44,915 nucleotides of DNA, from positions 1-44,915 of the forward strand of contig CALUZP010000019.1 in the NCBI GenBank assembly GCA_944325325.1. Reading direction: 5' to 3'. This stretch comes from an uncultured Desulfovibrionaceae bacterium (GTDB lineage: Bacteria; Desulfobacterota; Desulfovibrionia; Desulfovibrionales; Desulfovibrionaceae). Positions within the stretch are counted from its first letter, which is position 1. Each line of letters begins with the position of its first letter. This document shows, piece after piece, positions 16,248-38,144 of this stretch. The notes under the pieces were generated by a model. It saw only the letters and a program-made list of their open reading frames with translations. It searched no databases and was not told the DNA's origin. A program made the position numbers and the translations under genes.

Positions 16248-16252
16248 TTGTG

Positions 16253-16407
16253 CCGGGCCGCCGGCAAGGCGGTCCGGGCAGTTTGCTGTGGAGAGGGGAT
16301 ATGGTACAAGGCAGGCGGCACAAGCCGCCTGCGTGGACAGCTTTTGAGGGCAGGGACGAGTGACAGGAAGCGCCGCCAGCCTTTGCAGGCTGAAAGTCTG
16401 GCGGTGC
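16253..16407 (+). other. Three hairpins after the adhesin stop codon
   Basis: First: CCGGGCCGCC (16253-16262) with GGCGGTCCGG (16268-16277), loop GGCAA, five bases after the stop. Second: AGGCGGC (16313-16319) with GCCGCCT (16324-16330), loop ACAA. Third: GCGCCGCCAG (16370-16379) with CTGGCGGTGC (16398-16407). None is followed by a good T-run. They could slow or partly stop transcription, or protect the adhesin mRNA, setting a ratio between adhesin and the secretion genes. Confidence 0.5.
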
Positions 16408-16440
16408 CTGCCGCCATGTGTATGTGCAGGGCCGGGGTAT

Positions 16441-16588
16441 AGAGCCTTTTCAGTTTGAAGCGCGTTGCGTTTTAAACCATACGGTCTGTCTGTCGTTTCG
16501 CGGGAAGAATGCGGTTTTTCCGTTCAGTTTGGGCCGGGCGGTGCGGGGCTGCCGCCTTGCGTTCTGCCTTTTTCAAAGGCAAAGCTCT
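16441..16588 (+). repeat. Dispersed palindromic repeat, copy 3
   Basis: Intact outer ends AGAGCCTTTTCAGTTTG (from 16441) and AAGGCAAAGCTCT (to 16588). It includes the CATACGGTCTGTC block, with a CTGT duplication not seen in the other copies, and the block GGGCGGTGCGGGGCTGCCGCC. It lies between the adhesin and glycosyltransferase genes. Confidence 0.88.
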
Positions 16589-16780
16589 CCAGCGTCTGAC
16601 CAGAAGCGTCCTGACATAGGCGCATGGCCGTGGACAGACAGCACTGATGCGTTGGCAACCGCCTGCACACAAAGTTACGGTACAGGCTTGGCAGGGGGCG
16701 CAGGCAGCTGGCGGCAGTAAAGGGTGTGTGGATATACCGCGGGGCCAAGGCATGGTGGAATATCGCCTGTTGCAGATGGA

Positions 16781-17917
16781 ATGATGCGAATTTTATTTAT
16801 TAACCACACGTTTCCGGGGCTGTTTGGGGCGCTGGCCTCGGCGTTTGCCGCAGGCGGACATGAGGTGCTGTTTGCCTCCGGGTTCAGGCGAAGGGAATTT
16901 TCCTTGCCGGGAGTGCGACATATTGTGCTGGCTCCGCCGAAGGAGTCCCGTGCCTCCGGTGCATCCCGAAATGCCCCCGGGCTGGAGGCGGCCTTCAGTG
17001 CAGGGGGGCAGGCGGTGAAGGCCTTCAGCCGTCTTGCAGAAATGGGCCTTGCACCGGATATGGTGCTGTCCTCAGCGAGCGATGGATACGGCTTGTTTTG
17101 TGAAGAGGCCTTTCCCAGAGCGTTCCGGGTGGGCTGGGCTGAGGCGCCGGTCAGATTTCCCGGCAGAGAAATGTTGGGCGAGACGGCGTTTACCCGCCAG
17201 CTGCTGCAGTGCCGCTATGCCGTGAGCTGTCATGCCTTTGTATGCCTTGGCACGGGGGAGCCAGGCCGTTTTGCCTCCAGCCTGGCTCATGGCCTGGATG
17301 CGCCCTATGCGGTGAATACGGAATGGTTTTCTCCTGGTGCGGGCATGGGGCCTGAAGTGGTGCTGCTGCATGCCGGAAGGCTGGATGCGGCACTGGTGCA
17401 GCCCGTTGTGGCCGGTCTGCTGGAAGCCCGAGGGAGCTGTCATGTGGCCGTGCTGTGTGAGGGCCGGGCCGCGTGGGAAAGCTGGAGTACCGCGCGCGCT
17501 GCCATGCCGCAGCAGGCGCGTCTGCACCTGCCCGGCACGCTTTCACTGGAAGAATACAGGCAATTGCTGCGTGCCGCGGCGTTACTGGTGTGCCCGCACG
17601 ACGGCCTGCCTGCATCCACCCTGCTGGAGGCCATGAGCTGCGGGGCTGTACCTGTGCTGGAGGAAGACAGGCATCCGGTCTTTCTGCATCAAGGGCAAAA
17701 CGCCTTTTTCTACCAGGGGCGGCTGACGGCGGATTTGCTGGTATCCCTGCTGGAGGCGCACACGCCGCTTGCTGCTGCACGGGCCGGGGCACGGGCTGCA
17801 GTACTGGCCCTTTTTGACGGCAGGACAGTGACGTTGCAGCACATGCGGCTGTTGCTGGACGCATACGGGGCGTGGAAAAGGCGGAGTGTTTCCGCAACAC
17901 CCCGTCAGGCAGAATGA
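16781..17917 (+). CDS. Glycosyltransferase, GT-B fold (family 4-like)
   Basis: Start placed at ATG 16781; the next codon at 16784 is also ATG and the ribosome site (GGA) is weak for both. The 378-residue cytoplasmic protein begins MMRILFINHTFPGLFGALASAF, a Rossmann-type opening with the glycine-rich loop usual in GT-B enzymes. The C-terminal half has the nucleotide-sugar region: RLHLPGTLSLEEYRQLLRAA, then CPHDGLPASTLLEAMSCGAVPV, matching the E-x7-E type motif of family 4 glycosyltransferases (LLEAMSCG). The sugar donor and acceptor are unknown. It lies between the adhesin and its ABC transporter, 55 bases before the transporter start, so it may glycosylate the adhesin before export, or make a surface sugar. 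That link rests on position only. Confidence 0.78.
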   Translation: MMRILFINHTFPGLFGALASAFAAGGHEVLFASGFRRREFSLPGVRHIVLAPPKESRASGASRNAPGLEAAFSAGGQAVKAFSRLAEMGLAPDMVLSSASDGYGLFCEEAFPRAFRVGWAEAPVRFPGREMLGETAFTRQLLQCRYAVSCHAFVCLGTGEPGRFASSLAHGLDAPYAVNTEWFSPGAGMGPEVVLLHAGRLDAALVQPVVAGLLEARGSCHVAVLCEGRAAWESWSTARAAMPQQARLHLPGTLSLEEYRQLLRAAALLVCPHDGLPASTLLEAMSCGAVPVLEEDRHPVFLHQGQNAFFYQGRLTADLLVSLLEAHTPLAAARAGARAAVLALFDGRTVTLQHMRLLLDAYGAWKRRSVSATPRQAE

Positions 17918-17972
17918 CAGGAACAGCCTGCAGCGTTTTCCCCAGGCTTTCAATGAACGACAACGGTGCATC

Positions 17973-20417
17973 ATGACTGAACTTTCTTCTCCAACCTCTG
18001 ATTCTGCGACCCCGCTTTCTCCTGCGGAGGTGGATTTCATGCCTCCTCTGCTGCGCAGCCTTTCCATGCTGCTGCGGCTCAGAGGCAGGCATGTTTCTCC
18101 TCAGTTTCTTCTGGCCGGGCTTTCAGGGGCGGACAAGGTCAGTGCCGGGGCCTGCCTGCGTGCAGCCGAGAGGGCGGGGCTGAAGGGCCGGGTGATGTAC
18201 CGTCCTAAGCTTGACGATATTTCTCCGCTTACCTTGCCGTGCATTCTGCTGCTGAAAGGTGACGACTCCTGCGTGCTTACCGGACTGGAGCCGGAAGAGG
18301 CTCTGGTGATTATACCGGAACTGGGTGACGATGTCCGTCGGGTACCCCGTGCCGATCTGGAGGGGCAGTATTCCGGCTATGCCGTATTTGGCGCTCTTGC
18401 AAGCCGGGCAGATGCCCGCACGGAGCCTGTGCGCCGCAAGCCGGGCAAGAGCTGGTTCTGGGATGTCCTGCGTTTTTACATGCCCATTTACCGCCATGTA
18501 GCCCTGGCCAGCGTGGTTGTGAACAGCATTGCCGTGGTCAGCTCCCTGTTTGTGATGAATGTGTATGACAGGGTCATCCCCAACAGTGCGTATGAAACGC
18601 TGTGGGTGCTTGCCGTCGGTGTGCTGATTGCCTATCTGTTTGATTTCATTTTGCGCAGCCTGCGCAGCCATTTTGTGGATCTGGCCGGACGGAATGCAGA
18701 TGTGGTGCTTTCAAGCAAGCTCGTCGACAAGGTGCTTTCCATGCGCCTGGACGCCAAGCCCGAATCCACGGGCGCGCTGGTGAACAATCTTCGGGAGTTC
18801 GAGGCGTTGCGCGAGTTTTTCAGCTCGACGACGCTTCTGGCCTGCATCGACATCCCTTTTCTGATTCTGTTTTTTGTGCTTCTGGCCTTTATTGGCGGGC
18901 CGCTGGTGGCGCTGCCGCTTGCCGCCATGCCCGTATTGCTGGGCGTGGGCGTCTATCTGCAGATCCTCGCACGCAAGAGTGCAGAAAAAAGCTACCGGCA
19001 CAGCATGCAGAAAAATGCCCTGCTGGTGGAGATGGTCAATGGCCTTGAGACGGTAAAGGGCTGCATGGCCGAAAGCCGCATGCAGCGCCTGTGGGAGGCT
19101 GTGGCAGGCATTTCGGCGCAGTCTTCCAACGAGGCCCGCAAGTACAGCACGCGCGCCGTGGCCTTTGCCACGTTTGTCACCCAGATCGTCACGGTGGGTA
19201 TGGTTATATGGGGCGTGTACCGTATCGGGGCAGGGGATATGAGCATGGGCGGGCTGATCGGCTGCAACATCCTTGTAGGCCGCATCATGGCTCCACTGCT
19301 CCAGCTTGCGTCCCTGCTGACCCGCCTGCAGAATTCCCGCGTTTCCCTCAGGGCGCTTGACACCCTCATGCAGCTGCCCTCAGAAAATCAGGACGAATCC
19401 GCCTGCATGGATTTTGGCGCCCTGTCCAGTGAATTTGTGCTGGATAATGTGCATTTTTCCTATCCCGGGTCACAGGTCCCCGCACTTGACGGCGTGAGCC
19501 TGCGGATCCGACCGGGCGAAAAAGTGGGTATCATCGGCAAAATGGGATCGGGCAAAAGTTCCCTGGGCAAGCTTTTGATGGGGCTTTATCAGCCGCAGGA
19601 AGGGGCAGTGCTGTTCGGCGGCGTGGATATCCGGCAGCTTGCTACCGCTGATCTGCGCAGCCGGGTGGGCTTTCTGCCACAGGAAGTGATCCTCTTCTAT
19701 GGCAGTGTGCGGGACAATATTGCCCTTGGTGATCCTGTCATCAACGACCATCTCATCCTGCGCGCCTCGGCCATTGCCGGTGTGGCTGATTTTGTGAAAC
19801 GCCATCCTGCAGGCTATGGCGCACAGGTTGGCGAGCAGGGCCGTAACCTTTCCGGCGGACAACGCCAGGCTGTGGGGCTGGCCCGCGCGCTCCTGCGTGA
19901 TCCGGACGTGCTGATTCTCGACGAGCCTACAAGCAACATGGACGTGCATTCCGAGGGCCTTGTGCAGCGCCGTCTTGCGCCAGTCCTGGGCAAAAAGACA
20001 CTCATTCTCATTACCCACAGGCTCAGCATGCTGCGTATTGTCGACAGAATTATTGTCATGGATGCCGGGAAAATAGCTATGGATGGTCCGCGTGACAGCG
20101 TTCTGCGTGCGCTGCAGGAGCAGACGGCAGCCAGGCAGGGTTCTCCTTCTGCCGGAACCGGGGATGGCCCTGCGCCTGCCGCCGGCTCGAAGGAAAAAGC
20201 CGGGCGGGGTTCCACCCCAGTCAAGGCCACGCTGAATCTGAACCCTGCTGTGTCCGCATCACGCGGCAGTCTGGATGGCGCACAGGCAGGGTCGATGCCG
20301 GCCGGGGCAAAGCCTGCCCACAGTGGCACACGGAGCGTGTCAGGCCAGATCAGGCCTGCTGTCACCCCGCGTCCGGCAAAATCTTTTCCTGGAGGTACAG
20401 GAGAGACCCGGGGCTAG
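17973..20417 (+). CDS. Type I secretion ABC transporter, LapB/HlyB-like
   Basis: Start taken at ATG 17973 (MTELSSPTSD). The 814-residue inner-membrane ATPase exports the adhesin. Residues 20-150 form a C39-peptidase-like domain without the catalytic Cys (SMLLRLRGRHVSPQFLL), as in HlyB and LapB, so it docks substrate rather than cuts it. The membrane domain spans about 170-460. The ATPase domain has Walker A GKMGSGKSS (522-530), signature LSGGQRQ (626-632), Walker B VLILDEPTS (646-654) and switch His682. Unusually, about 95 residues rich in Ala, Gly, Pro and Ser follow the ATPase domain (720-814), where relatives normally end. The stop codon lies inside a GC-rich hairpin (20405-20431). Fusion-protein and TolC genes follow. 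Confidence 0.93.
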   Translation: MTELSSPTSDSATPLSPAEVDFMPPLLRSLSMLLRLRGRHVSPQFLLAGLSGADKVSAGACLRAAERAGLKGRVMYRPKLDDISPLTLPCILLLKGDDSCVLTGLEPEEALVIIPELGDDVRRVPRADLEGQYSGYAVFGALASRADARTEPVRRKPGKSWFWDVLRFYMPIYRHVALASVVVNSIAVVSSLFVMNVYDRVIPNSAYETLWVLAVGVLIAYLFDFILRSLRSHFVDLAGRNADVVLSSKLVDKVLSMRLDAKPESTGALVNNLREFEALREFFSSTTLLACIDIPFLILFFVLLAFIGGPLVALPLAAMPVLLGVGVYLQILARKSAEKSYRHSMQKNALLVEMVNGLETVKGCMAESRMQRLWEAVAGISAQSSNEARKYSTRAVAFATFVTQIVTVGMVIWGVYRIGAGDMSMGGLIGCNILVGRIMAPLLQLASLLTRLQNSRVSLRALDTLMQLPSENQDESACMDFGALSSEFVLDNVHFSYPGSQVPALDGVSLRIRPGEKVGIIGKMGSGKSSLGKLLMGLYQPQEGAVLFGGVDIRQLATADLRSRVGFLPQEVILFYGSVRDNIALGDPVINDHLILRASAIAGVADFVKRHPAGYGAQVGEQGRNLSGGQRQAVGLARALLRDPDVLILDEPTSNMDVHSEGLVQRRLAPVLGKKTLILITHRLSMLRIVDRIIVMDAGKIAMDGPRDSVLRALQEQTAARQGSPSAGTGDGPAPAAGSKEKAGRGSTPVKATLNLNPAVSASRGSLDGAQAGSMPAGAKPAHSGTRSVSGQIRPAVTPRPAKSFPGGTGETRG

Positions 20418-20431
20418 CCCCCGGTCGGGTC
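20405..20431 (+). other. Hairpin over the ABC transporter stop codon
   Basis: Outer arms GACCCG (20405-20410) and CGGGTC (20426-20431), inner arms GGGG and CCCC around the stop codon. No T-run follows. The 258 bases from here to the fusion-protein gene hold no gene that I can recognise. Confidence 0.4.
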
Positions 20432-20689
20432 CTGGCGTGTCTGAGGTTTCGACGCCTGGCCGTGTGTGCGTTTCCACCTGAGACAGAAGATGCCGGGCAG
20501 ATCCTGTATCAGTGTGCCAGATGCAAACGAGTGCGGATGCTGCACACACAACAGACGCTGTAACGGTGCACGGAATCTCCCTCTTCAGGAAGTGCGGACA
20601 GTGCTGGAGCGAAACAGTGCAGTCAAAAGACGCAGCCTGTTTCAGGCGGCGTGCGGATTCTATGCGACAAGTCACAGGGGATTGTTCCC

Positions 20690-22192
20690 ATGGATGAAGA
20701 TACCAAAGGAAGAAACGAACGGCCGGAGCTCCCTCCAGAGTTTGGCGGTGTTTCCGGCGTGAGTGGAAAGCCCTCTCCGGAATCGGGGGCAGCACGGAGC
20801 CTGTTTGAGCCTGTCGCTCTGTTCAGTCAGCTCCTTCCTGAGGATCTGCCTTATGCGAGCGAGGTAGAAGCGGCGCTGGCGCGTCGTCCAACAAAAAAAG
20901 CCCGTTGGCTTTCTGCCGGGGTATTCTGTTTTTTTGTAGCGTTTCTGGTGTGGGCTGGTTTTGCTGTGCTCGATGAGGTGACCCATGCCGAGGGCCAGGT
21001 TGTACCATCTTCCCGCACGCAGATTATCCAGAATCTGGAGGGTGGCATCCTCAGTGAGGTTGTCGTGCATGAAGGCCAGATTGTGGAAAAGGATGACGTG
21101 CTGGCCCGCCTGAATAACGAAATGGCAGAAAGCAACCTGCGTGACATGCTGTACAAGGCCATGGAAAACCTGATTGCCATCCGGCGTCTGCGCGCCACTG
21201 TTGAGGGCACGGCCCTGGATTGGCCGGAGGATATGCGCGGCTGGCTGGAACGGGGCACAGGCTATAATCTGACCGGGGAGCAGATTGATCAGGGCATCAG
21301 AATGGCTGAGGTGCAGAAGGAAACCTTTGCTGTGCAGAAGCGGCAACGGGAGTCCGAGATTCAGGTGCTCATGGCGCAGGCGGAGCAGCGCCGTCAGGAA
21401 GTCAAGGAGCAGCTTGCCCGCAAGGAACAGCTGACCCGCAGCCTTGCCCTGATCCGCCAGCAGCTCGGCATGGCTGCATCGCTGTTGGAAAAGCGCAGCT
21501 ATTCACGCGCACAGTATCTGGAGCTCCAGGAGCGATCGGTACAGACCCAGGGGGAAATCAAGACCCTGGAAGTGTCCATTCCCAGAGCAGAGGCTGCGGC
21601 CGCCGAGGCTGAGCTTCGCATAACCTTGCGCAAGGCTGAGCTTGACGGTGTGCTGATGGAGGAAATAGGGCGGCGCAGCCTGGAGCTGGCTTCCCTGCGT
21701 GCGGGCCTTTCTGCCGGCAGTGACCGCGTGACCCGGACAGAACTGCGCTCCCCGGTGCGTGGCACCGTAAAGCAGATCTATATCAATACAGTAGGTGGTG
21801 TGGTCAAACCGGGCGAGCCCATTATGGAAATTGTGCCGCTGGATGACACGCTGCTGGTGGAAGCCAGAGTGCGCCCCGCGGATGTGGCCTTCCTGCGCCC
21901 GGGGCAGAAGGCCATGGTCAAGATTTCCGCCTACGACTATTCCATCTATGGCGGGCTGGACGGTGTGCTTGAACAGATCAGCGCCGACACCATCGAAGAC
22001 AAGCGGGGCGAGTTCTACTATCAGGTCAAGGTGCGCACGCCGAAGGCCGCTATTGCGTATCGGGGCGAGGAACTGCCCATCATGCCTGGTATGATGGCCA
22101 CTGTGGACATCATGACAGGCAAAAAGACTGTGCTCAACTATTTGCTCAAACCTATCCTTAAGGCGCGTCAAAATGCCTTACGTGAAAAATAA
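20690..22192 (+). CDS. Type I secretion membrane-fusion protein, HlyD/LapC-like
   Basis: Start chosen at ATG 20690 (MDEDTKGRNE) with AGGGG about 9 bases upstream. The 500-residue periplasmic adaptor links the ABC transporter to the TolC channel. It has a soluble N-terminal segment (1-70), one membrane helix (about 73-93, WLSAGVFCFFVAFLVWAGF), a first lipoyl half (EGQVVPSSRTQIIQNLEGG), a long helical hairpin (about 145-350, many QAEQRRQEVKEQLARKEQ-like heptads), a second lipoyl half (RTELRSPVRGTVKQIY), and the beta-barrel/HlyD signature region ending EELPIMPGMMATVDI. Length and order match LapC/HlyD proteins of the PrtE/HlyD family. It is followed after 198 bases by the outer-membrane channel gene, which may have a separate promoter. 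Confidence 0.94.
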   Translation: MDEDTKGRNERPELPPEFGGVSGVSGKPSPESGAARSLFEPVALFSQLLPEDLPYASEVEAALARRPTKKARWLSAGVFCFFVAFLVWAGFAVLDEVTHAEGQVVPSSRTQIIQNLEGGILSEVVVHEGQIVEKDDVLARLNNEMAESNLRDMLYKAMENLIAIRRLRATVEGTALDWPEDMRGWLERGTGYNLTGEQIDQGIRMAEVQKETFAVQKRQRESEIQVLMAQAEQRRQEVKEQLARKEQLTRSLALIRQQLGMAASLLEKRSYSRAQYLELQERSVQTQGEIKTLEVSIPRAEAAAAEAELRITLRKAELDGVLMEEIGRRSLELASLRAGLSAGSDRVTRTELRSPVRGTVKQIYINTVGGVVKPGEPIMEIVPLDDTLLVEARVRPADVAFLRPGQKAMVKISAYDYSIYGGLDGVLEQISADTIEDKRGEFYYQVKVRTPKAAIAYRGEELPIMPGMMATVDIMTGKKTVLNYLLKPILKARQNALREK

Positions 22193-22245
22193 TAACTATT
22201 AAAATAAAGAATATTAATATGTTAAATATGTAATAATAATTATTA

Positions 22246-22273
22246 TTGAAATAGAGACAGCACGCTGTATACT
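22246..22273 (+). promoter_or_regulatory. Candidate promoter of the TolC-like gene
   Basis: TTGAAA (22246-22251), a 16-base spacer and TATACT (22268-22273), set in an AT-rich gap (22193-22290) that contrasts with its GC-rich surroundings. It would allow the channel, lapG and the HD-GYP gene to be transcribed independently of the upstream genes. Confidence 0.5.
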
Positions 22274-22390
22274 ATGCATAAAATAATGTGACCGTACGGG
22301 ATAGGTGCGTTGGGGCGCGACGCAACGGTGTCAGGGGCCAGGACGATTAGACAAACTTCATCCAACGTAAGGGTAGATAAAGGATTTTGT

Positions 22391-23818
22391 ATGTCGCTGC
22401 TCTCTCTCCTTATGCAAAAATTTGTGCGTGTGGCTGTACGGGAAAACGTTCCTGTAAAACAATGTGCGGTGCTGGTTGCATCAGGCTGTCTGAGTGTGGC
22501 GCTGTGCACGCCCGCCCTGGCGGCCAGGGATGCGTCCATAAACTTGAAGGACTCTGTTGAGGCCATGCTGCGCTATAACAACTCGCTGAAGGCCATCCAG
22601 GAAAACCGCAGCGCTGCCGGCCACGATGTGGACAGGGCCAAGGCCGGATATGGCCCCCGGGTGGATTTGACCCTGCGCGGAGGGGTCGGCAAGCTCAGTG
22701 ACAGCACAACCCGTTCCTATGGGTATGACGAAGTCTCGCCATACGGCTCCACGTCGCTGCTCATTACGCAGCCGTTGTGGGATGGCAGGCTTACGCGCGG
22801 CCGCGTACGGGAGGCTGAAGCCACCTACCGTTCCCTGGAGCACCGTGTGCTGGACAACGCCAACAGCCTGGCGCTGGATGCCATCATTGCCCATGTGGAT
22901 GTGCTGCGCCGGCAGCAAATCTACAAGCTGGCCCAGGACAATGTAGCACGTCATGAAGAGATTCTGGAAAAGGCCCGCGCTCGCGAGGCACAGGGCGTCG
23001 ACACACTGGCTGACGTTTCCCAGGCGCAGAGCCGTCTGGCCCGTGCGCACTCTACGCTGACGGAGGCGCGTGCTTCCCTGCGTATAGGGGAAGACACCTA
23101 CACGCGTCTTACCCGTCACCCTGCCGTGAACCTCGGGCAGGTGAGTATGCCCGGCGGCATGTATAAGGATGCCGGGGCGGTTCTCGAGGCCGCCCGCAAG
23201 GGCAATCCCAAGGTAGCCGCATATATGGAAGACGTGAAGGCGGCTACAGCCGTGCGTGAGCAGGCGCGTTCAGCCTACAGTCCTTCCCTGAGCATTGAGG
23301 CCGGTCCTTCCTACTCAGACCGGGACGGCAGAAGCGAGCTGTGGACCGCTGAAGTCGGTGTGGCGGCCGTGGTGCGCTGGAATCTGTTCAACAGCGGAGC
23401 CGACGTGGCCAACAGCAAGGCTGCTGCGGCGCGTATTCGTCAGAGCCGCCGTGTTCTGTATGACTATATGGATGACTTAAAGCTCAATGTAGAGGAAACA
23501 TGGACACAGTATCTTTCGGCACAACAGCAGCTTGATTTTTATACTGAAGCCATTGGATACAACAAAACAACACGCAATGCTTATGAAGAGCAGTTCATCA
23601 TGGGCCAGCGAAGTCTGCTTGATGTGCTTGATGCAGAAAACGAGCTGTTCAACTCTTCCACACAGGCGGCTACGGCATGGGGCAACACGATGATTGCAGC
23701 GTATCGCATGAAGGCGCTTGCCGGTGAGCTGCTGCCAGGGCTCGGCATCAATCCCGACATTTTGAAGGCCGTGCCTGAGGACAGGGAGCCGCTGGACAGC
23801 ATCAGTCTGCCCAAGTAG
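22391..23818 (+). CDS. TolC-family outer-membrane channel, LapE-like
   Basis: Start at ATG 22391 (MSLLSLLMQK), with AAGGA 7 bases upstream; a longer frame from 22310 has no such site. The 475-residue product has a signal peptide with an unusually long N-terminal region, core CAVLVASGCLSVALCTPALA, and cleavage expected after ALA-A. The mature part shows the TolC duplication: two similar halves with long helices and porin strands (first half YGPRVDLTLRGGVG, second half YSPSLSIEAGPSYSDRDG), and the family's terminal FIMGQRSLLDVLDAENELF. It forms the trimeric outer-membrane exit duct in which LapA-type adhesins are held. It is followed by a strong hairpin (23839-23873) and then lapG. Confidence 0.94.
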   Translation: MSLLSLLMQKFVRVAVRENVPVKQCAVLVASGCLSVALCTPALAARDASINLKDSVEAMLRYNNSLKAIQENRSAAGHDVDRAKAGYGPRVDLTLRGGVGKLSDSTTRSYGYDEVSPYGSTSLLITQPLWDGRLTRGRVREAEATYRSLEHRVLDNANSLALDAIIAHVDVLRRQQIYKLAQDNVARHEEILEKARAREAQGVDTLADVSQAQSRLARAHSTLTEARASLRIGEDTYTRLTRHPAVNLGQVSMPGGMYKDAGAVLEAARKGNPKVAAYMEDVKAATAVREQARSAYSPSLSIEAGPSYSDRDGRSELWTAEVGVAAVVRWNLFNSGADVANSKAAAARIRQSRRVLYDYMDDLKLNVEETWTQYLSAQQQLDFYTEAIGYNKTTRNAYEEQFIMGQRSLLDVLDAENELFNSSTQAATAWGNTMIAAYRMKALAGELLPGLGINPDILKAVPEDREPLDSISLPK

Positions 23819-23838
23819 GGGATCCGCAGGATGAAGGG

Positions 23839-23873
23839 CCCTGGCGGCGGCGTAGCGTTGTCTGCCGCCAGGG
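23839..23873 (+). terminator. Strong hairpin after the TolC-like gene
   Basis: Perfect 10-bp arms CCCTGGCGGC (23839-23848) and GCCGCCAGGG (23864-23873), 20 bases after the stop codon. It lacks a T-run, so it may be a partial terminator or an mRNA-protecting structure rather than a full stop before lapG. Confidence 0.45.
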
Positions 23874-24072
23874 TACAAGCGCCGGAGTTCGCGTGTCAGA
23901 TGCCGGAGAGGGCCTGGCTTTCAGGGGGCTGTAATGAAAGCCGGCAGGTGCTGCACGGGCAGGAAGCGGTTTGTCAACGTGCCGGAAAATGGAAAACGGG
24001 GAATTGAGCATCATTGTTTCCCGGCATAGTACGCGGAGGGCGGAACAAACAAGCGGGGGCGAGAGGACAGTC

Positions 24073-24714
24073 ATGGACAAAGGAACAGCCTTTTTCCGGC
24101 GCATGCCGGTTCTGGGGGCTTTTGCCATGCTGCCGCTTCTGCTCCCTTCCGGGGCGCAGGCAGGGCCACGGCTTTTCAACACGGTAGAGTTCCAGATGGA
24201 GCTGAAAAAACCGTCGTCCTGGCTCAGCGCCATGGAAAGAAACCGCAATTCGCCTATTTTCTTTGACGAAAAGCGGTTTAACGCCTCGACGCTGTGGAAG
24301 GATTTGAAGCAGAAGGCCGCTGGAAAGCCGTTGCTGGAGCAGCTGGGCATTGTCAACAGTTTCTGGAATCAATGGCCCTACCGGACGGACAAGGAAGTGT
24401 ACGGGAAGGCCGACTACTGGGCCGCACCGTATGAATTTCTTGCCAGATCGGGTGATTGTGAGGATTACTGCATTGTCAAGTATTATACGCTGAAGGCGCT
24501 TGGCGTGCCGGCGGATCGCATGCGCATTGTGGTGGTCCGCGAAGTCATCCGCGACATAGGGCATGCAATACTGGCTGTATATGACACAGACGGTGAAATT
24601 TATATCCTGGACAATCTTTCCGAGGCGGTACGGCCTGCCCAGCGGGTGCGCAACTATGTGCCGCAGTTTTCGGTCAATGAGAAGCATCGCTGGATCCATG
24701 TGAAGCCTCGTTAG
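24073..24714 (+). CDS. lapG: LapG-like periplasmic cysteine protease (BTLCP family)
   Basis: Start chosen at ATG 24073 (MDKGTAFFRR), with AGAGGA 6 bases upstream. The 213-residue protein has a signal peptide (FFRRMPVLGAFAMLPLLL, cut near AQA at 28-30) and the bacterial transglutaminase-like cysteine protease domain. The triad is Cys129 in RSGDCEDYCIVKYY, His164 in IGHAILAVY and Asp180 in YILDNLSE; the acidic residues next to the Cys (D128, E130, D131) fit the Ca2+ site of LapG. LapG proteins cut the N-terminal retention module of LapA-type adhesins at a di-alanine site, releasing the adhesin and dispersing biofilm. A suitable PAAG site is present in the adhesin encoded upstream. The next gene encodes the likely LapG-sequestering receptor. 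The closest described relative that I know is DvhG of Desulfovibrio vulgaris. Confidence 0.93.
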   Translation: MDKGTAFFRRMPVLGAFAMLPLLLPSGAQAGPRLFNTVEFQMELKKPSSWLSAMERNRNSPIFFDEKRFNASTLWKDLKQKAAGKPLLEQLGIVNSFWNQWPYRTDKEVYGKADYWAAPYEFLARSGDCEDYCIVKYYTLKALGVPADRMRIVVVREVIRDIGHAILAVYDTDGEIYILDNLSEAVRPAQRVRNYVPQFSVNEKHRWIHVKPR

Positions 24715-24771
24715 CGGCAGTGCCGGGCTGTAGACAACGCAGAACGGCAGATCCTGCAGGCCGTGCCGTTT

Positions 24772-24915
24772 AGAGCGTTTGCCATTGAAAAGGCAAAACG
24801 CGAGGCGGCAGCACAGTGCTGCCCGGCCAGAAGTGAGCGGAAAAACCGCGTTTTTCCCACGAAACGACAGGCCGTATGGTTTGAAACGCAACGCGTTTCA
24901 AACTGAAAAGGCTCT
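24772..24915 (-). repeat. Dispersed palindromic repeat, copy 4 (inverted)
   Basis: The only copy in reverse orientation. Both ends are intact (AGAGCGTTTGCCATTGAAAA at left, AACTGAAAAGGCTCT at right). The inner hairpins are well formed: GGCAGCAC/TGCTGCC-type block, GGAAAAACCGCGTTTTTCC and GAAACGCAACGCGTTTC. The copy lies between lapG and the HD-GYP gene. An open frame upstream of that gene runs through it but is not likely translated. Confidence 0.9.
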
Positions 24916-25051
24916 AAAGTTGAAGCGAGACAGCGTGGCGCTGAGTTGCAGCACAAAGCCGGCAGGTGTGGCACTGATTGTGAAAACGCACAACGGGTAT
25001 TTTGGGTATAAGGGAATGCCGCGATGCCCCACACAAGATGGAGGATCGGAG

Positions 25052-27112
25052 ATGATCGGCCGAGAGGATGTGAATTATTCCGGCTTTTCCAGAAAGTCGG
25101 TGCTGCTGGCCGCACTGGGCCTGGCGCTTGTATCGGGAATCATTGCTGTGTTTTTCTGCTTTTCCCGCATCGAGTCACGGCAGCACGAGGTGCTTGGCTT
25201 TTATGAGCAACAAGTGGGCGCCTGGCTCAACGATGTGGCGCGGACCATGGAAGCCTGGGACAAGGAAATGGCCGCCCTTCGTCTTCGTGTAAGCGGTGCT
25301 GAGACCTATAGACTTTTTGCAGGGGACCTGTTCGGGCTCGACAAGCGGGTGACGGGCAGCATCAACAGCGGGATTCCCGGAGGCGAGCTTTCCGGCAACA
25401 TCGCCGTCCTTTCCGAGGAAGTGCCCGTCATTCGCCGGATTCTGCTGGAGTTCATGAATTACAACGGGCTGCTGGACGCACGCCTTGTTAATCGGGAAGG
25501 ACAGACGATCCTTTCCGCCCTGAGCACGCCTACACCTCTGTCCCCCGAGCAAAGTCGCGCAGCCCTGCGGGCCATGGAAACCGGCGACACCGTATACCTG
25601 CCTGTTCGCAGTTGTCCCAACGGCCTGGCCATGGACGTGTTTGAGCCCATGGTTGATCTGGATAATGCCGAACGGCGTGTGGCCACCTTCATGTTGACCG
25701 TGCCGGTACTGGGCAAGATTTCGCAGTTTACGGCCATGCCCAAACAGCATGATCTTGCTGCGGCCTATATGCTGCAAAAGCGTGGTACGATCTGGGAGCG
25801 GATGCAAACGCCGGAGCCGGTGCCGCTTGACGAAACCCTGAGTCTTACCCTGAGCAGAGCTGGCGGTCAGCTTCCCTTTGCCTTGCGGGACAGCGTGGCC
25901 GAGGGTGGTGGGAAGGTGTATTCCATGTCGACATTCCTGCCTGTTCCGGGCTGGTGCATCGTGCAGGAAACGCCTGAGGCTGTGATGAAGAACATGCTGT
26001 TCCGTGCAGCCCTGCCTGCCGTGGTGGTGAGCGTACTTGGCTGGCTGAGCTTTATCCTGCTGTGCGGGCTGCTGTGGTGGATGGGGCTTGGCCGTCAGCA
26101 GCGCGCTGTGACCGCAGAGCTCAAGCGTCTTAACCAGCTCGTTTCCCGCCAGAAAGAACTGCTTGACAGTGTCAATATTTCACTCGACATCGGCCTGTTC
26201 ATGGCGGATGTAAAGGGCTATATTCATGTGTGCAATCCCGCGTTTGCCGCCATTGTTGGCAAACCGGAGCAGGAGGTGAGCGAGCAGGCGCTCTTCTCGT
26301 GCATGCCTGCGAAGGTGGCTTCAGAGCTGCTCGACCGGATTCGCCAGGTGGCCATCAACAACGCCAGCGACGGCTGTGAAATCTATCTGGAGCAGAACGG
26401 CGAACAGCGTCTGTACCGCGTGACGATCTTTCCCTTCCTTGATGCAGGGGAAAAAAGCGTGCGCGACAGCCTGCGCGGCGCTGTGGTGAGCATGCGGGAC
26501 ATTACTGAATTCCGCCGCCGCAGCGAAAGGATGCGTCAGCAGCAGCGCGGCCTTATCGAGGCTTTCACCCGGGCGGAGGAAAGTGTGGATCCATATCTTG
26601 CCGGGCATTCGCAACGTATGGCGGAACTGGGTGGACTTGTGGCCACAAGCATGGGCCTGGATGAAGACAGCCGGGATACCATCGTCATGGGGGCGAGGTT
26701 GTCCCAGATTGGCAAACTGTTTATCCCGCGTGCGCTTTTGACCAAAAAGGGACGCCTTACGCCTGAGGAACTGGCAGAGGTGCACAAAGCCCCGGATCAC
26801 GCCTTCAAGCTGATGGAAGGCATTGATTTTGATCTGCCCATTGCCCGGGCTCTGCATGAGATGTATGAGAACATGGACGGGACAGGCTACCCCCGCGGCC
26901 TGCGTGACAAGGACATCCTGCCGGAAGCCCGTGTGCTGGCTGTGCTCAACGCCTTTTGCGCCATGATGAGCGCCCGTTCCTATCGTGAAGGCATGAGTGA
27001 GAAAAAGGCGCTGGAGGAACTTTCGGGCGACGTTCGTTTTGATCAGCGCGTGGTGGAACATCTGAAAAAAGTGCTGGAAACGCCGGAGGGCCTGCACGCC
27101 GCGCATGTCTGA
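25052..27112 (+). CDS. Membrane PAS/degenerate HD-GYP protein, LapD substitute (DvhD-like)
   Basis: Start chosen at ATG 25052 (MIGREDVNYS), with GGAGG 7 bases upstream; the longer frame from 24779 is read through repeat copy 4. The 686-residue inner-membrane protein has TM1 at about 16-37, a periplasmic Cache-like domain (38-315), TM2 (about 320-345), a short coiled coil, PAS (about 370-490) and HD-GYP (about 500-680). The HD-GYP domain keeps His519, DGTGYP (GYP 612-614) and the general fold, but the HD pair is Ser551-Gln552 (LSQIGK for LHDIGK), the next metal His is Ala, and the DVYDAL motif is LNAFCAM. Hydrolysis of c-di-GMP is thus unlikely; binding may persist. Placed right after lapG, it fits an inside-out receptor that holds LapG when c-di-GMP is high, a role filled by GGDEF-EAL LapD in Pseudomonas. 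Confidence 0.85.
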   Translation: MIGREDVNYSGFSRKSVLLAALGLALVSGIIAVFFCFSRIESRQHEVLGFYEQQVGAWLNDVARTMEAWDKEMAALRLRVSGAETYRLFAGDLFGLDKRVTGSINSGIPGGELSGNIAVLSEEVPVIRRILLEFMNYNGLLDARLVNREGQTILSALSTPTPLSPEQSRAALRAMETGDTVYLPVRSCPNGLAMDVFEPMVDLDNAERRVATFMLTVPVLGKISQFTAMPKQHDLAAAYMLQKRGTIWERMQTPEPVPLDETLSLTLSRAGGQLPFALRDSVAEGGGKVYSMSTFLPVPGWCIVQETPEAVMKNMLFRAALPAVVVSVLGWLSFILLCGLLWWMGLGRQQRAVTAELKRLNQLVSRQKELLDSVNISLDIGLFMADVKGYIHVCNPAFAAIVGKPEQEVSEQALFSCMPAKVASELLDRIRQVAINNASDGCEIYLEQNGEQRLYRVTIFPFLDAGEKSVRDSLRGAVVSMRDITEFRRRSERMRQQQRGLIEAFTRAEESVDPYLAGHSQRMAELGGLVATSMGLDEDSRDTIVMGARLSQIGKLFIPRALLTKKGRLTPEELAEVHKAPDHAFKLMEGIDFDLPIARALHEMYENMDGTGYPRGLRDKDILPEARVLAVLNAFCAMMSARSYREGMSEKKALEELSGDVRFDQRVVEHLKKVLETPEGLHAAHV

Positions 27113-27401: not shown

Positions 27402-27451
27402 TTTGTAAAAAAACAACAAAGGGATGGCAATGTTGCCATCCCTTTGTTGTT
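27402..27451 (-). terminator. Strong terminator of the phosphorelay operon
   Basis: Perfect 19-bp inverted repeat (27412-27430 and 27433-27451) separated by only two bases; the sequence GGGATGGCAA pairs with TTGCCATCCC. Read on the minus strand, the stem ends in GTTGTTTTTTTAC, giving a T-run. It lies 184 bases past the last kinase gene and also blocks transcription coming from the adhesin locus. Confidence 0.88.
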
Positions 27452-32891: not shown

Positions 32892-33251
32892 TTAGGACAG
32901 GTTTTCTTCTATGGCGCGCAACACCGCGGCATAGGCCTGCTTGATGTGCGGCATGAGCGCTTGCGCTCCGGCCTTGTCATCCGTACGCAGGGCATGCACC
33001 TGTTTGTCCAGCAGAGTGAACAGATTCGTAAATGAAAGATTTGCGCACACGCCTTTCAGCGTATGCGAGGCTTCCAGGGCAGCTTCAGCGTCCCCGGCCT
33101 CCATCGCTGTGGAAAGCCTGACATAGGTGGTGTCTGCCGGAAATTTCTTCAGCAGCCGGATCAGGAGCGCTTCGCTGCCCATGCAGCGATCAAGCAGGCC
33201 CTGCATGTCAATACCGCCGTCTCTAAGCAGGTTTTTCACGCGTTCATCCAT
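32892..33251 (-). CDS. Free-standing Hpt phosphotransfer protein
   Basis: Start at ATG 33251 (MDERVKNLLR); it overlaps the stop of the upstream regulator gene by 8 bases, so translation is probably coupled. The 119-residue cytoplasmic protein is a helical Hpt domain with phospho-acceptor His63 in ASHTLKGVCANL, the family motif. Hpt proteins shuttle phosphate between receiver domains: here from the hybrid kinases downstream to the response regulator upstream, both of which lack their own Hpt. This gives the operon all parts of a His-Asp-His-Asp relay. The wiring is inferred from gene order. Confidence 0.92.
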   Translation of the reverse strand: MDERVKNLLRDGGIDMQGLLDRCMGSEALLIRLLKKFPADTTYVRLSTAMEAGDAEAALEASHTLKGVCANLSFTNLFTLLDKQVHALRTDDKAGAQALMPHIKQAYAAVLRAIEENLS

Positions 33252-34344
33252 GACCGTTCTCCTTTCCGTTGAGACTGTACAGCTTGGCAAGTTCGCCTTC
33301 CACGGCAAAGAACCGATCCAGCAGCAGGGGATTGAATACCCCGCACTTGTTGTTTCTGATCATATACAGTGCTTCCTCTCGGGAAAAAGCCTGTTTGTAA
33401 CATCGTTTGTTCACCAGCGCGTCATAGACGTCTGCCAGGGAGACGATCTGCGCCCAGATGGTAATTTCATCGCCTTTCAGACCGTCAGGATACCCCTTGC
33501 CATCCCACCGCTCATGATGGTGACGGGCGATGTCGTACGCGTAAATATAGGATTCATGCTCACGCAGCTGAGGAATCTTTTTCAGCATTTCAGCCCCTTG
33601 GACAGTATGCGTCTTGATGATTTCGTATTCTTCGGGGGTGAGCTTGCCGGGCTTGTTCAAAATGGAATCGGGAATGGCTATCTTGCCCACATCATGCATG
33701 ATGGAAGCCAGGGCAATGTGCTCGATAGTCTCTTTTGACAGCCCGGTGCCTAAATCCGTATGCAGCAGAAGGAAGCTGGTGATGTCATGAATGCGCCGGA
33801 CGTGTTCGCCGGACTCGCCATTGCGAAATTCGATGGCTGCAGACAGGGCCTCAATCATGCCTTCATTCAGCCGGATAATTTTCTGCGCCTGCAACAGCAG
33901 CTCCGACTGCTGCTCCTCTACCTTGTTGCCCAGGAGCTTTCGGGATCGAAACAGCTCTACCACTGAATTAACCCGTCGTTGCACCACATATGGCACCACG
34001 GGTTTGGTGATGACGTCCATCACTCCCAGCTCATAAGCTTCCCGGGTGACAGCGTCACTGGCCTCCCCCGTGATGAGAAAGACGGGGAGCTTTGCCAGGA
34101 AGCCACGTTCATTCAGCTGCCGTAATACTTCAATGCCGTTCATTTCCGGCATGACCACGTCCAGCAGAATGGCGCAATATTTGTTTGGTGCCTCGAGGAC
34201 GGCTGCAAGGCCGGCTTTGCCGTCAGCCGCATGCTCCGCCGGATAGAAGGGAGCGAAGATGGCTTCGAGAAGATCTCGATTGATGTCGTTGTCATCGACA
34301 ATAAGCAGAGTGTCGGCAGGTGATTGTTTGGAAACCTGGGGCAT
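33244..34344 (-). CDS. Response regulator with active-looking HD-GYP phosphodiesterase
   Basis: Start at ATG 34344 (MPQVSKQSPA), with AAGGGG 7 bases upstream. The 366-residue cytoplasmic protein has a receiver domain (1-125; acidic pocket DD at 17-18, phospho-acceptor Asp62 in LLDVVMPEMNG, Lys114), a helical linker (130-165), and an HD-GYP domain (about 165-345). All metal and signature residues are visible: His181, His217-Asp218 (MHDVGK), His246, HHHERWDGKGYP (275-286) and Asp305 (ADVYDAL). HD-GYP enzymes of this RpfG-like design degrade c-di-GMP. Phosphorylation via the relay would change c-di-GMP and so could trigger or prevent LapG release. First gene of the operon; a recombinase gene is divergent from it. 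Confidence 0.93.
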   Translation of the reverse strand: MPQVSKQSPADTLLIVDDNDINRDLLEAIFAPFYPAEHAADGKAGLAAVLEAPNKYCAILLDVVMPEMNGIEVLRQLNERGFLAKLPVFLITGEASDAVTREAYELGVMDVITKPVVPYVVQRRVNSVVELFRSRKLLGNKVEEQQSELLLQAQKIIRLNEGMIEALSAAIEFRNGESGEHVRRIHDITSFLLLHTDLGTGLSKETIEHIALASIMHDVGKIAIPDSILNKPGKLTPEEYEIIKTHTVQGAEMLKKIPQLREHESYIYAYDIARHHHERWDGKGYPDGLKGDEITIWAQIVSLADVYDALVNKRCYKQAFSREEALYMIRNNKCGVFNPLLLDRFFAVEGELAKLYSLNGKENGHG

Positions 34345-34922
34345 AGTTTTCCCCTTGTATGCGATGAGAAGTCCCCCCCGTGGCAGCCGTGCCATGCACG
34401 AGCGGTCCCGCCTTGCTGTCCGGGGATGGGTTGTTATACCGCGTCATTGTGCGTTTGTCATGGGGAATATGAGAAAGCGCATGACGTGAGCCTGCCTGAA
34501 GGGTTGTCCGGGCAGGACAGAAATTGCCCGGGCTGTTGTCGCAAGAAAAGCATGCCTGTTATAGGTACGGCAGGTCGTACTGCGGCCCTGTGGCAAGGGG
34601 AGTTCAGAAGGCTGCCTGAAAGGCCCTCTGACAGCAAGGTGCGCCGCTCGCGTGTCCCAGGGCAGTGCAGCCTGAGACTTTGCACCAGGGAACCAGCTCC
34701 GGAGCCTGGCCGGAGTGATTGATAACAAACGAAACAATCCTCGTCAGATGCTATGATGCAAGGCAGCTTTCACACGGGGCCTTCATGATGGAAATCTCCA
34801 GGCGCTGCATGAGCATCAGAATGTGTGGCGACACGGCCAGCCGGCTGGTTGACATTGTCTCCTCCCGTGTACCGTATGGCGCGTCAGTTTGCCTTATTCC
34901 CTTTTTCTCAGGAGAACAGAAC
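34345..34922. other. Divergent intergenic region, regulator/recombinase
   Basis: About 580 bases that must hold the promoters of the phosphorelay operon (minus) and the recombinase (plus). I see no gene and no clear consensus promoter. A TATGAT at 34752-34757 lacks a convincing -35 partner. Frames upstream of 34923 are open but have no ribosome site. Confidence 0.5.
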
Positions 34923-36071
34923 ATGTCAAGCCATACCACGGCATCACGGGGGGCGTCGGCCTCTTTCACTCTTTGCAGAAAGCCCTCTTCGGCGTCTCCC
35001 GTCAGCTGTGAAGGCTTTGCGCGCATGGCGTATTTGCCGCACATCCGGCTGCGCAAGCGCAGCTGGCAGGTCGATGAGCGCATTCTGCGGCAGCATATCA
35101 TGCCGACCTTTGCTGCCTTTGCTTTGTCGGATATTACCAGAAGCGACGTGGAGGGGTGGCTGTATTCACTGGCTAGGCAGGGGCTTGCACCAGCCTCATG
35201 CAATAGAATTTTAAGTGTTTTTAAAAGCCTGTGTTCACTTGCCGTCGTCCGTGGAGTGATTTCTCATTCGCCGTGCACCGGCGTGGCGCCACTTAAGATC
35301 CGGCAGATGCGCGAACGTTACCTGTCACACGACGAAGCCAGGCGGCTTATCCTGGCCTTGCAGAAATCATCCAGGCCAGAGGCAAGAGTCCTTCAGTTGC
35401 TGTTGTTGACGGGCGCACGGAAAAGCGAAATCCTGAAAGCCCGCTGGGAAGACGTGCATTTAGATCGTCATCTGCTGACAGTCCCGCTTTCCAAATCCAA
35501 CCGGCCGCGTCACATCGCCCTGTCTGACGAGGCTGTGGCCGTAATCCGAAATCTGCCGCGCCATCCAGGCTGTTCGTGGTTGTTTCCCGGGCACACGCCG
35601 GACAAACCTCTTTCTGACATCTATCTTTTTTGGAATGACCTGCGGCAAAAACTGGGGATTGCCGAAGTCCGCATTCACGATCTGCGTCACACGTTTGCCA
35701 GTATCCTCGTCAATGCCGGGCATTCCCTTTATGAAGTGCAGCGCCTGCTGGGCCATAGCGACCCGCGCACGACCATGCGTTACGCCCATCTGGGACACTG
35801 TTCCATGCTGGCCGCTACAGGAACAGTCAGCACATTTTTGTATGGCGCCTGCCCGGAGACACTCGCAAACGCACACGTTCCTGCTGTGAGCGCATTACCA
35901 AAGCTGCGGAGGCATCAGCTGGACTGGCCGTGCAGACAGTGTCGTCAGCCGAAACCACTGGCAGCCAAAAGCCGGCTCAAGGCCGCACTGCCAGTTCGGC
36001 AATGGAGGAAAAAAGCGCGCGCCTATGACCGACATCTTTGTGAGAGCAGGGCCGGGCGCTGTCAAAATTGA
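34923..36071 (+). CDS. Tyrosine recombinase (phage-integrase family)
   Basis: Start chosen at ATG 34923 (MSSHTTASRG), with AGGAG 9 bases upstream; the frame is open to 34719. The 382-residue protein has a core-binding domain (about 35-120) and the catalytic domain with the full set of residues: Arg166 (TGARKSEIL), Lys191 (LSKSNRPR), His252 and Arg255 (HDLRHTFAS), His278 (LLGHSD) and the nucleophile Tyr287 (TTMRYAHL). A basic tail of about 85 residues follows. No phage, transposon or cargo genes surround it, so it may be a remnant of an integrated element or a dedicated site-specific switch enzyme. The second idea is supported by the 19-bp inverted repeat that begins 35 bases past its stop codon. 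Confidence 0.9.
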   Translation: MSSHTTASRGASASFTLCRKPSSASPVSCEGFARMAYLPHIRLRKRSWQVDERILRQHIMPTFAAFALSDITRSDVEGWLYSLARQGLAPASCNRILSVFKSLCSLAVVRGVISHSPCTGVAPLKIRQMRERYLSHDEARRLILALQKSSRPEARVLQLLLLTGARKSEILKARWEDVHLDRHLLTVPLSKSNRPRHIALSDEAVAVIRNLPRHPGCSWLFPGHTPDKPLSDIYLFWNDLRQKLGIAEVRIHDLRHTFASILVNAGHSLYEVQRLLGHSDPRTTMRYAHLGHCSMLAATGTVSTFLYGACPETLANAHVPAVSALPKLRRHQLDWPCRQCRQPKPLAAKSRLKAALPVRQWRKKARAYDRHLCESRAGRCQN

Positions 36072-36105
36072 TAGGTAACTAATTGAAAAATAATATAATT
36101 CATGC

Positions 36106-36278
36106 ACAGATACACTGTCGATGAGAAGTAAGGAATTAAATAACATAGCTTGTCTTATTTGGCAATATAGCATCTATGTAATTTAAATAGTATTTATGCA
36201 TAAAAAAACTTCTATTTGATCCATAAGGATATTATAATAATATATAAAAATGACTGTTTTCATCGACAGTGTATCTGT
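36106..36278. repeat. 19-bp inverted repeat flanking an AT-rich segment
   Basis: ACAGATACACTGTCGATGA at 36106-36124 and its exact reverse complement at 36260-36278, with 135 bases of very AT-rich DNA between. The segment has promoter-like TATAAT (about 36233) on the plus strand and TTGCCA-17-TATTTA on the minus strand. Too widely spaced for a terminator, it resembles the crossover sites of an invertible promoter element, next to a tyrosine recombinase gene. Confidence 0.7.
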
Positions 36279-36921
36279 CTACAATGCTTCTTATGGTTGT
36301 TGTAGATTTAAAGTTGACATTTTTAGTGTACATTATGCTTGCGGAAACCATGAAGTACGTCCTTGGTATGCTTTTTTTATATAGAACACAGCTATCAAAT
36401 TCATGCGGATCGTCAGCGTGCTGAACGTGGCAGCGTCATGGCTGGCATGGCTCTGGGAGGGGGAATAGCCGGCAACGAGCAGAGAATACAGCCTGTATGT
36501 TGGGAGGACAGATGTTTTCAGCAATATGGACAGCCCAAATTTTTCGTGGCAGCCTTTATGCCCGCTGAAAGCAGTATCGGGTGAGCGTGGGCTGGCCTTT
36601 TGGCATCGGTGAGTTATATGCAATAGCAGGCTTGGCTTCACCAGAGGAAGTCCGTATTGCCGTCAGAGGAAAATTGAGGTCTGCTGGATGTCGGGATTGA
36701 TCTGTGCTGTGGGCAACGGGTGAAATATCTCGCGCAGCACGGGCGAAAGTATCGCCACAGACCGGCCGATGGTGTCAGGTTAACGGAGTGTCAGAGGATG
36801 GTTTTCATGAAAATGAAGTGTCATCTGGAAGTATCAACTCCGTACAATGTTTAATAGTGCTTATGGTAAAAGCCATATCGAAAGCCTGACTACGTCAGAA
36901 AACTGTACAAGGAAGACTGTC
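36279..36921. other. Intergenic region upstream of the GGDEF gene
   Basis: About 640 bases. Two small frames (36363-36584 plus, 36333-36641 minus) overlap each other and have no recognisable family. A TTGACA at 36314 has a TATGCT only 14 bases further, short for a normal promoter. No other structure was found. Confidence 0.5.
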
Positions 36922-37893
36922 ATGCAACATTCTTCAATACAGCATATATATACACTTCCTGAACTTAAGAATGAAATAAATGTTCTTAGACGCACATTTC
37001 ATAGCGTGCGTCTGGTTTCTCCTGCTGAATGTCGTGTGTTATGCATGGACGAAGATAAAATTTCTTTGTCTGACAATTGCCACAGTGTGTGGAGACGTTC
37101 TTCTCCGTGCGAGTATTGCCTTTCGCGCCGTGTACTCATGTCACACGGCACAGACATGAAGACGGAGTTCATCGATGGCCGTTTTTTCCTTGTGCTTGCC
37201 AAGTATGTTCTTCTGGAAGGTAAAGAGTTTTCCCTGGAGATGATTTCTGAGGTAACGGATCCTTCCGGTTTTGGGAGTGAGGAGCCTGTCTTTGATGAAA
37301 TATCCCGCCTGGAAAAAGAAAATTCCCGCCTTATGCGCGATCCGCTGACCAACTGCTACAGCCGTCATTATCTGAATGAAAATTTTCAGCACTATGCACG
37401 GGTGGCAAGAAACCGTGGACAGGATCTTTGCATCGCGCTGTTTGACATGGATAACTTCAAGGGCATTAATGACAGATACGGCCACGCCATCGGGGATGCC
37501 GTACTGCAAAGCTGCTGCTCCTTCTGGCTGAAATATTTTGATGTGCCAAGCTGGGGATTTCTGACAAGATATGGCGGAGATGAGTTTGTTATCGTCAGTA
37601 TGGTAAGCAGTTATAAGGAGTTCTGTTTCAGACTGGTGCAGCTGGCGGGCTCCATGCGCAAGACCATTGTCATGCCTGACGGCAGTTCCATTCCTTTTTC
37701 TTTCACCATGGGGTGCGCTTCCATGAGAGAAACGCACATCCTCGATGAGCGTATTGTATGGAATGCCATGCTTCCGCTGGCAGACCAGCGCATGTACCAG
37801 GGCAAAAGCGCTGGCCGTAACTGCATCGTGACAGGGCTTGGCGGGATGCCATGCTATCCCGGGGAGCGCGGTTCGTCCTCTGATGAGCGCTGA
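36922..37893 (+). CDS. Diguanylate cyclase (GGDEF) with Cys-rich PAS-like sensor
   Basis: Start chosen at ATG 36922 (MQHSSIQHIY), with AAGGA 7 bases upstream; the frame is open to 36847. The 323-residue soluble protein makes c-di-GMP from two GTP. The N-terminal 115 residues form a PAS-like sensor with DNCHSVWRRSSPCEYCLSRR (Cys53, Cys63, Cys66), a pattern that could bind a metal, Fe-S cluster or respond to redox state. A coiled linker (125-138) leads to the GGDEF domain: DPLTNCYSRHYL, DMDNFKGIND, then GGDEF at 218-222 intact. No RxxD product-inhibition site precedes it (PSWGFLTR instead), so feedback by c-di-GMP is likely weak. It lies downstream of the recombinase and inverted repeat. Confidence 0.92.
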   Translation: MQHSSIQHIYTLPELKNEINVLRRTFHSVRLVSPAECRVLCMDEDKISLSDNCHSVWRRSSPCEYCLSRRVLMSHGTDMKTEFIDGRFFLVLAKYVLLEGKEFSLEMISEVTDPSGFGSEEPVFDEISRLEKENSRLMRDPLTNCYSRHYLNENFQHYARVARNRGQDLCIALFDMDNFKGINDRYGHAIGDAVLQSCCSFWLKYFDVPSWGFLTRYGGDEFVIVSMVSSYKEFCFRLVQLAGSMRKTIVMPDGSSIPFSFTMGCASMRETHILDERIVWNAMLPLADQRMYQGKSAGRNCIVTGLGGMPCYPGERGSSSDER

Positions 37894-38051: not shown

Positions 38052-38144
38052 TGGCGGAGAGAGAGGGATTCGAACCCTCGATACAGTGTTACCCGTATAC
38101 CCGCTTAGCAGGCGAGCGCCTTCGGCCGTCTCGGCCATCTCTCC
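38052..38144 (-). tRNA. tRNA-Ser (anticodon GCU)
   Basis: A 93-base class II tRNA read on the minus strand. The acceptor stem GGAGAGA pairs with TCTCTCC, the 3' GCCA end is encoded, the T arm is GAGGGTTCGAATCCCTC, the anticodon loop is CTGCTAA (anticodon at 38107-38109), and the long variable arm is the one expected for serine. It reads AGC/AGU codons. Confidence 0.97.

Follow-up and report, generated by a model that had tools for sequence, protein, structure and literature searches.

We identified a putative site-specific inversion switch in a 44,915-bp stretch of DNA (here, the window) from an uncultured Desulfovibrionaceae bacterium. According to this reading, to which we assign a probability of about 0.82, a tyrosine recombinase flips an adjoining 135-bp promoter segment, a downstream diguanylate cyclase gene is currently OFF, and the locus belongs to a multi-locus system. 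We favor it because the sites are linked to the recombinase, their crossover spacers match, the segment contains a conserved internal box, and an orthologous locus occurs in opposite orientations. A first-pass annotation had proposed a fim-type invertible promoter beside the recombinase; an invertible promoter switch is the best-supported interpretation, but the enzyme is not fim-type and the promoter-like box points at the recombinase.

The 19-bp sequence ACAGATACACTGTCGATGA at positions 36106 to 36124 recurs as its exact reverse complement at 36260 to 36278, as originally reported, and the 135 bp separating the arms (36125 to 36259) are indeed AT rich (79% A+T). The first arm lies 34 bases beyond the end of the recombinase open reading frame (ORF) at 36071. 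This is the sole inverted repeat of ≥15 bp in the window with arms >100 bp apart (within 500 bp); the window's other perfect inverted repeat is a local hairpin at 27412, and Markov-1 randomised windows contained a mean of 0.0 such repeats of ≥15 bp. Comparison with relatives revealed that each 19-bp arm forms the inner portion of a 25-bp dyad site. The two sites lie on the plus strand at 36100 to 36124 and on the minus strand at 36260 to 36284, with the consensus TCATCGACAG-N5-CTGTCGATGA derived from ∼55 pairs. The left site reads TCATGCACAG-ATACA-CTGTCGATGA and the right site reads TCATCGACAG-TGTAT-CTGTCTACAA, so that the inner half-sites are perfect, the outer half-sites are degenerate, and the left and right spacers are reverse complements of each other. 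Core sites of tyrosine recombinases usually consist of two half-sites flanking a short crossover spacer. The 25-bp dyads look like such sites, and their inverted pairing around a short segment is the arrangement of an inversion switch.

The adjoining gene (34923 to 36071, plus strand) encodes a 382-amino-acid tyrosine recombinase that matches PF00589 above the cut-off (E = 2.1e-31). The complete catalytic set attributed to it at first was verified, as R166, K191, H252, R255, H278, and Y287 are all present and aligned in 17 relatives, which places the protein within the tyrosine recombinase superfamily. Descent from the fim-type enzymes was not upheld, as the protein scored 21.1 bits on the FimB/FimE-type invertase model (NF007370/PRK09870), whose cut-off is 221. 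Among solved structures, the nearest matches are XerA, an integrase, and XerD. We considered and rejected a Xer identity based on scores far under the equivalog cut-offs for XerD (100.2 versus 329.6 bits) and XerC (96.0 versus 335.15 bits).

Close relatives of the recombinase were detected in 42 of 288 Desulfovibrionaceae genomes. The search for the arms in relatives that the annotation had recommended yielded ∼55 site pairs across the family. With up to 2 mismatches allowed, the 25-bp site occurs in 19 of its genomes. Eighteen of these 19 also encode the recombinase, which would be the enzyme acting on the sites, compared with 42/288 overall (Fisher P = 3.6e-16); the only site-bearing genome without it (G005) is an incomplete assembly. 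Start-to-start distances of paired sites are mostly 153 to 166 bp. Some pairs lie 30 to 230 bp downstream of a recombinase gene (in the window and in genomes G088, G106, G113, and G145, among others), and many others are found at other places in these genomes, unlinked to it, including among the five dispersed site loci of the single-contig genome G088. Based on this distribution, we infer that one invertase may act in trans on dispersed sites that have no recombinase of their own. The annotation had named absence of the repeat beside a conserved recombinase as an observation that would count against a switch. This was found in part: recombinase orthologues in G002, G013 (contig C56), G027, G153, and locus L040 have no paired sites adjoining them, but G013 and G153 carry sites elsewhere in the genome. 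One lone site in the window's genome (G000:C138:4140) has no partner and was discarded as a chance match.

The locus-specific spacers point to recombination. Among 55 pairs picked on their half-site letters alone, the 5-bp spacer is identical in the inverted copy in 52, while unrelated pairs match fully in 4.5% of cases; some 30 different spacers are used, varied between loci and matched within pairs. Strand exchange by tyrosine recombinases needs identical spacers, and static operators do not, so this pattern favors recombination over an arrangement in which two operators, bound by a recombinase-like protein or another regulator, flank a promoter that never inverts. The retention of all catalytic residues by the recombinase also argues against such a static element.

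Within the segment, the claim of promoter-like elements was sustained, but their direction is leftward, at the recombinase. Alignment of 40 segments in a common orientation revealed a position-conserved TTGCCA-N17-TATTGA box, in which the TTG is present in 40/40 segments and the first two −10 bases are present in 39/40 and 38/40. The −10 ends at a fixed distance of ∼11 bp from the nearer arm and is without the conserved final T of sigma-70 promoters, and the promoter function of the box is thus uncertain. In the window, the box occupies 36137 to 36165 on the minus strand (−35 TTGCCA, 36165 to 36160; −10 TATTTA, 36142 to 36137; 17-bp spacer), and transcription from it would cross the left arm and enter the recombinase gene at its 3′ end. 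When run on the window alone, automated promoter scans did no better than chance, and their output was set aside. An earlier candidate promoter pointing away from the recombinase was overturned by the 40-segment alignment, which reversed the ON and OFF assignments.

Orientation was informative both for and against flipping. At one orthologous locus with flanks 89% identical, the box faces the gene in G145, whereas in G005 it faces the opposite way. A doubled arm lies on the gene side in both genomes, and there is great divergence between the segments themselves, one of which has grown to 372 bp. At a third, more distant locus (G145:C1), the box also points away from the gene, and trans loci, which have no linked recombinase, face both ways (∼8 towards the gene and 11 away). 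On the other hand, the box faces the recombinase at every one of the 15 recombinase-linked loci where it is readable (the window included, as well as G088, where the box is weak), an outcome with a chance of ∼6e-5 if both orientations were sampled equally. Flipping at linked loci must therefore be rare, biased, or absent. The uniformity may reflect rare or biased flipping, or else antisense transcription into the recombinase gene that stabilizes the state. Although this uniformity, together with the conserved box and spacing, fits the static-operator arrangement, the spacer matching and the opposite orientations at the orthologous and trans loci make that arrangement unlikely. Doubled arms with the same spacer, 44 to 45 bp apart on the gene side, were also noted at L135:5553-6018 and L079:1783-2017, and the L135 segment contains a palindrome-rich insert with GCTTTAGCCGG-type hairpins.

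The assemblies contain possible traces of inversion. Contig ends fall within ∼200 bp of ∼8 of 59 elements, compared with 1.2 expected (P = 3e-5; expectation calculated manually using rounded numbers of contigs), an excess for which AT-rich inverted repeats could be responsible instead of flipping. At its end, contig G013:C20 continues past the right arm with 17 bases that match the left flank exactly in reverse complement, as expected from reads of a flipped form, which supports inversion but is not proof of it. Taken with the opposite orientations between species at the orthologous locus, these traces favor flipping, again as support and not as proof.

The first-pass annotation suggested that the switch could serve either the cyclase or the recombinase; the present orientation faces the recombinase, and the cyclase is a plausible target. 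The proposed switched gene (36922 to 37893, plus strand; start at 36847 or 36922) encodes a GGDEF-domain diguanylate cyclase (PF00990, E = 2e-23) with an intact GGDEF motif in its translation. It lies 563 to 638 bp from the switch, and no terminator-like site was found between the two. Orthologues 50 to 66% identical to it occur in nine genomes of another genus, and in five of these the gene diverges from an orthologue of the response regulator with an HD-GYP domain encoded at 33244 to 34395 (minus strand) of the window (74 to 76% identity for the two compared). Four of the five genomes have 279 to 350 bp between the two genes and the remaining one has 903 bp, and in none of the five does this gap contain a recombination site or a recombinase. 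Most likely, the recombinase and switch were inserted as a cassette between the cyclase gene and its ancestral divergent neighbor in the window's lineage. This insertion makes control of the cyclase by the switch plausible and is the strongest reason to regard the cyclase as the switched gene. With the box directed towards the recombinase, the cyclase is predicted to be OFF.

We propose that the recombinase would bind the half-sites of both 25-bp dyads and exchange strands within the matching 5-bp spacers, thereby flipping the 135-bp segment, whose promoter would read out through one arm. As presently oriented, it would fire into the recombinase gene from its 3′ end and leave the cyclase without a transcript from it; after inversion, it would drive the cyclase and raise cyclic di-GMP. 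Neighboring genes in the same cell encode an RTX adhesin along with its type I exporter, as well as a LapG-type protease. The recombinase may also act on distant sites. The cassette or the switch alone precedes many surface-structure genes of the Desulfovibrionaceae. The window itself contains, at 8370 to 27112, a Lap-like adhesion locus built around a 2,602-amino-acid RTX/cadherin-like adhesin, with genes for a type I secretion ABC protein, HlyD, OEP, a LapG-type BTLCP (cysteine) protease, and a PAS-HD-GYP protein, plausibly under cyclic di-GMP control. Given how Lap-type systems operate, a cyclic di-GMP switch would have obvious local outputs here.

A rival possibility is that the recombinase serves a phage or genomic island as its integrase, with the repeats being attachment-site remnants by a tRNA-Ser gene (38052 to 38144). 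The phage-integrase family match of the recombinase and the tRNA gene 1.8 kb away fit such an origin, but just this cassette lies between the cyclase and its ancestral neighbor, and tRNA or tmRNA genes, of different kinds, occur in just 3 of 29 related loci scanned. Moreover, the conserved partner of the recombinase is an inverted pair that recurs at scattered loci in a complete genome, no relative was confirmed on viral contigs, and none exceeded 60% identity in phages or plasmids. We therefore regard an integrase origin as very unlikely.

Elsewhere, the elements sit mostly in front of genes, and their neighbors include autotransporters, capsule and glycosyltransferase genes, DegT aminotransferases, flagellins, a chemoreceptor, two-partner secretion, an RTX/DUF4347 protein, and polyketide synthases. 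The numerous scattered copies, whose interiors are related, and the entry of the recombinase-plus-switch cassette into the cyclase locus might suggest a MITE-like small transposable element, bounded by terminal inverted repeats, that the recombinase mobilizes. We consider this highly improbable because the elements mostly precede genes and each terminal repeat has the two-sided dyad structure, spacer included, of a recombination core site. In addition, the G088 autotransporter copies are alike in the element and also in their flanks and gene starts, indicating duplication of whole gene units, and no empty site was found to indicate that the unit of roughly 185 bp had been inserted precisely and by itself. 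Finally, the dyads could fold in RNA into hairpins whose 5-nt loops, complementary by sequence in nearly all pairs, kiss and so control transcript fate, but this is scarcely credible when the predicted start site puts just one arm in the transcript, the often degenerate outer halves would weaken the hairpins, and the linked recombinase and opposite orientations are left unexplained.

One close parallel to an inversion switch of this kind is Clostridioides difficile pdcB (Cdi2), where a 174-bp invertible promoter with 19-bp repeats lies 840 bp upstream of a cyclic di-GMP enzyme and colonies in the reference orientation (∼99% reference) are OFF (PMC9286219). Several loci inverted by RecV flip within one C. 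difficile genome, and pdcB encodes a phosphodiesterase whose switch has no identified recombinase (PMC9286219). The two systems are alike in placing an invertible promoter, a putative one here, upstream of a cyclic di-GMP enzyme, in a reference state that is OFF (predicted here), and in having several loci. They differ in lineage, which is unrelated, and in the enzyme, a diguanylate cyclase in the window; here, too, the recombinase is often linked, and the 25-bp dyads have locus-specific spacers and a conserved promoter-like box. In Escherichia coli fimS and ipuS, a surface adhesin is under the control of an invertible promoter segment with a tyrosine recombinase (FimB, FimE, or IpuA) next to it, and one recombinase can act on distant elements (PMC6083910). 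The fimS/ipuS repeats are shorter (7 to 16 bp) and the ipuS segment is longer (260 bp) (PMC6083910). Unlike the fimS enzymes, the recombinase reported here falls outside the FimB/E subfamily by NCBIfam score. The Mpi regulon of Bacteroides fragilis comprises one invertase, a serine recombinase, and many dispersed invertible capsule promoters. The Desulfovibrionaceae arrangement is Mpi-like in its many dispersed switches before surface genes, but the enzyme is a tyrosine recombinase, not an Mpi-type serine recombinase, and sometimes occurs as multiple copies, every one of them linked to a switch of its own. XerC/XerD-dif shares the superfamily and the two half-sites around a short spacer, whereas the sites here are inverted pairs before surface genes and the recombinase scores far under the Xer cut-offs.

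Our search of the open-access literature found no description of phase variation via invertible promoters in Desulfovibrio or other Desulfovibrionaceae. Invertible promoters are a known kind of switch, and the family-wide, multi-locus form is apparently new, a provisional assessment. We tentatively suggest that the loci might form a family-wide phase-variation regulon in which 5-bp spacers isolate individual switches, mobile cassettes capture new targets (in the window, a cyclic di-GMP synthase), and antisense transcription from a linked switch into its own recombinase gene keeps that switch mostly OFF; we hold this broader idea as possible rather than probable. Desulfovibrionaceae are common gut sulfate reducers. 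If the idea is correct, a few recombinases would randomize capsule, glycans, adhesins, flagellin, and cyclic di-GMP signaling across the family, with bearing on colonization, phage escape, and biofilm formation. The covarying spacers would also offer a natural set of parallel recombination sites for studying crossover specificity.

Several other loci were observed. A second pair in the window's genome (G000), at C102:8658-8866 (L076:5659-5867), lies between a Chlam_PMP-repeat autotransporter gene and a capsule synthesis gene, both transcribed outward, and one flip there could swap one surface structure for another. Four switches precede large polyketide-synthase-like genes (L143:4822-6006, L181:7411-7595, L184:7075-7263, and L078:5267-5495), three of them adjoining a recombinase. 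At the first of these (G106:C22), 1,160 bp separate the sites, and the sequence between them is a different, unrelated one. A further inverted pair, AACAGGCGTATTGTTGGT, with copies 143 bp apart at L036:1842-2020 in Desulfovibrio sp. ZJ369, is possibly a diverged switch. Locus L158 carries two near-identical switches (6056 to 6238 and 9676 to 9858) 3.6 kb apart on one contig. An MBOAT acyltransferase gene separates the two, and the second is followed by a more distant paralogue of the recombinase.
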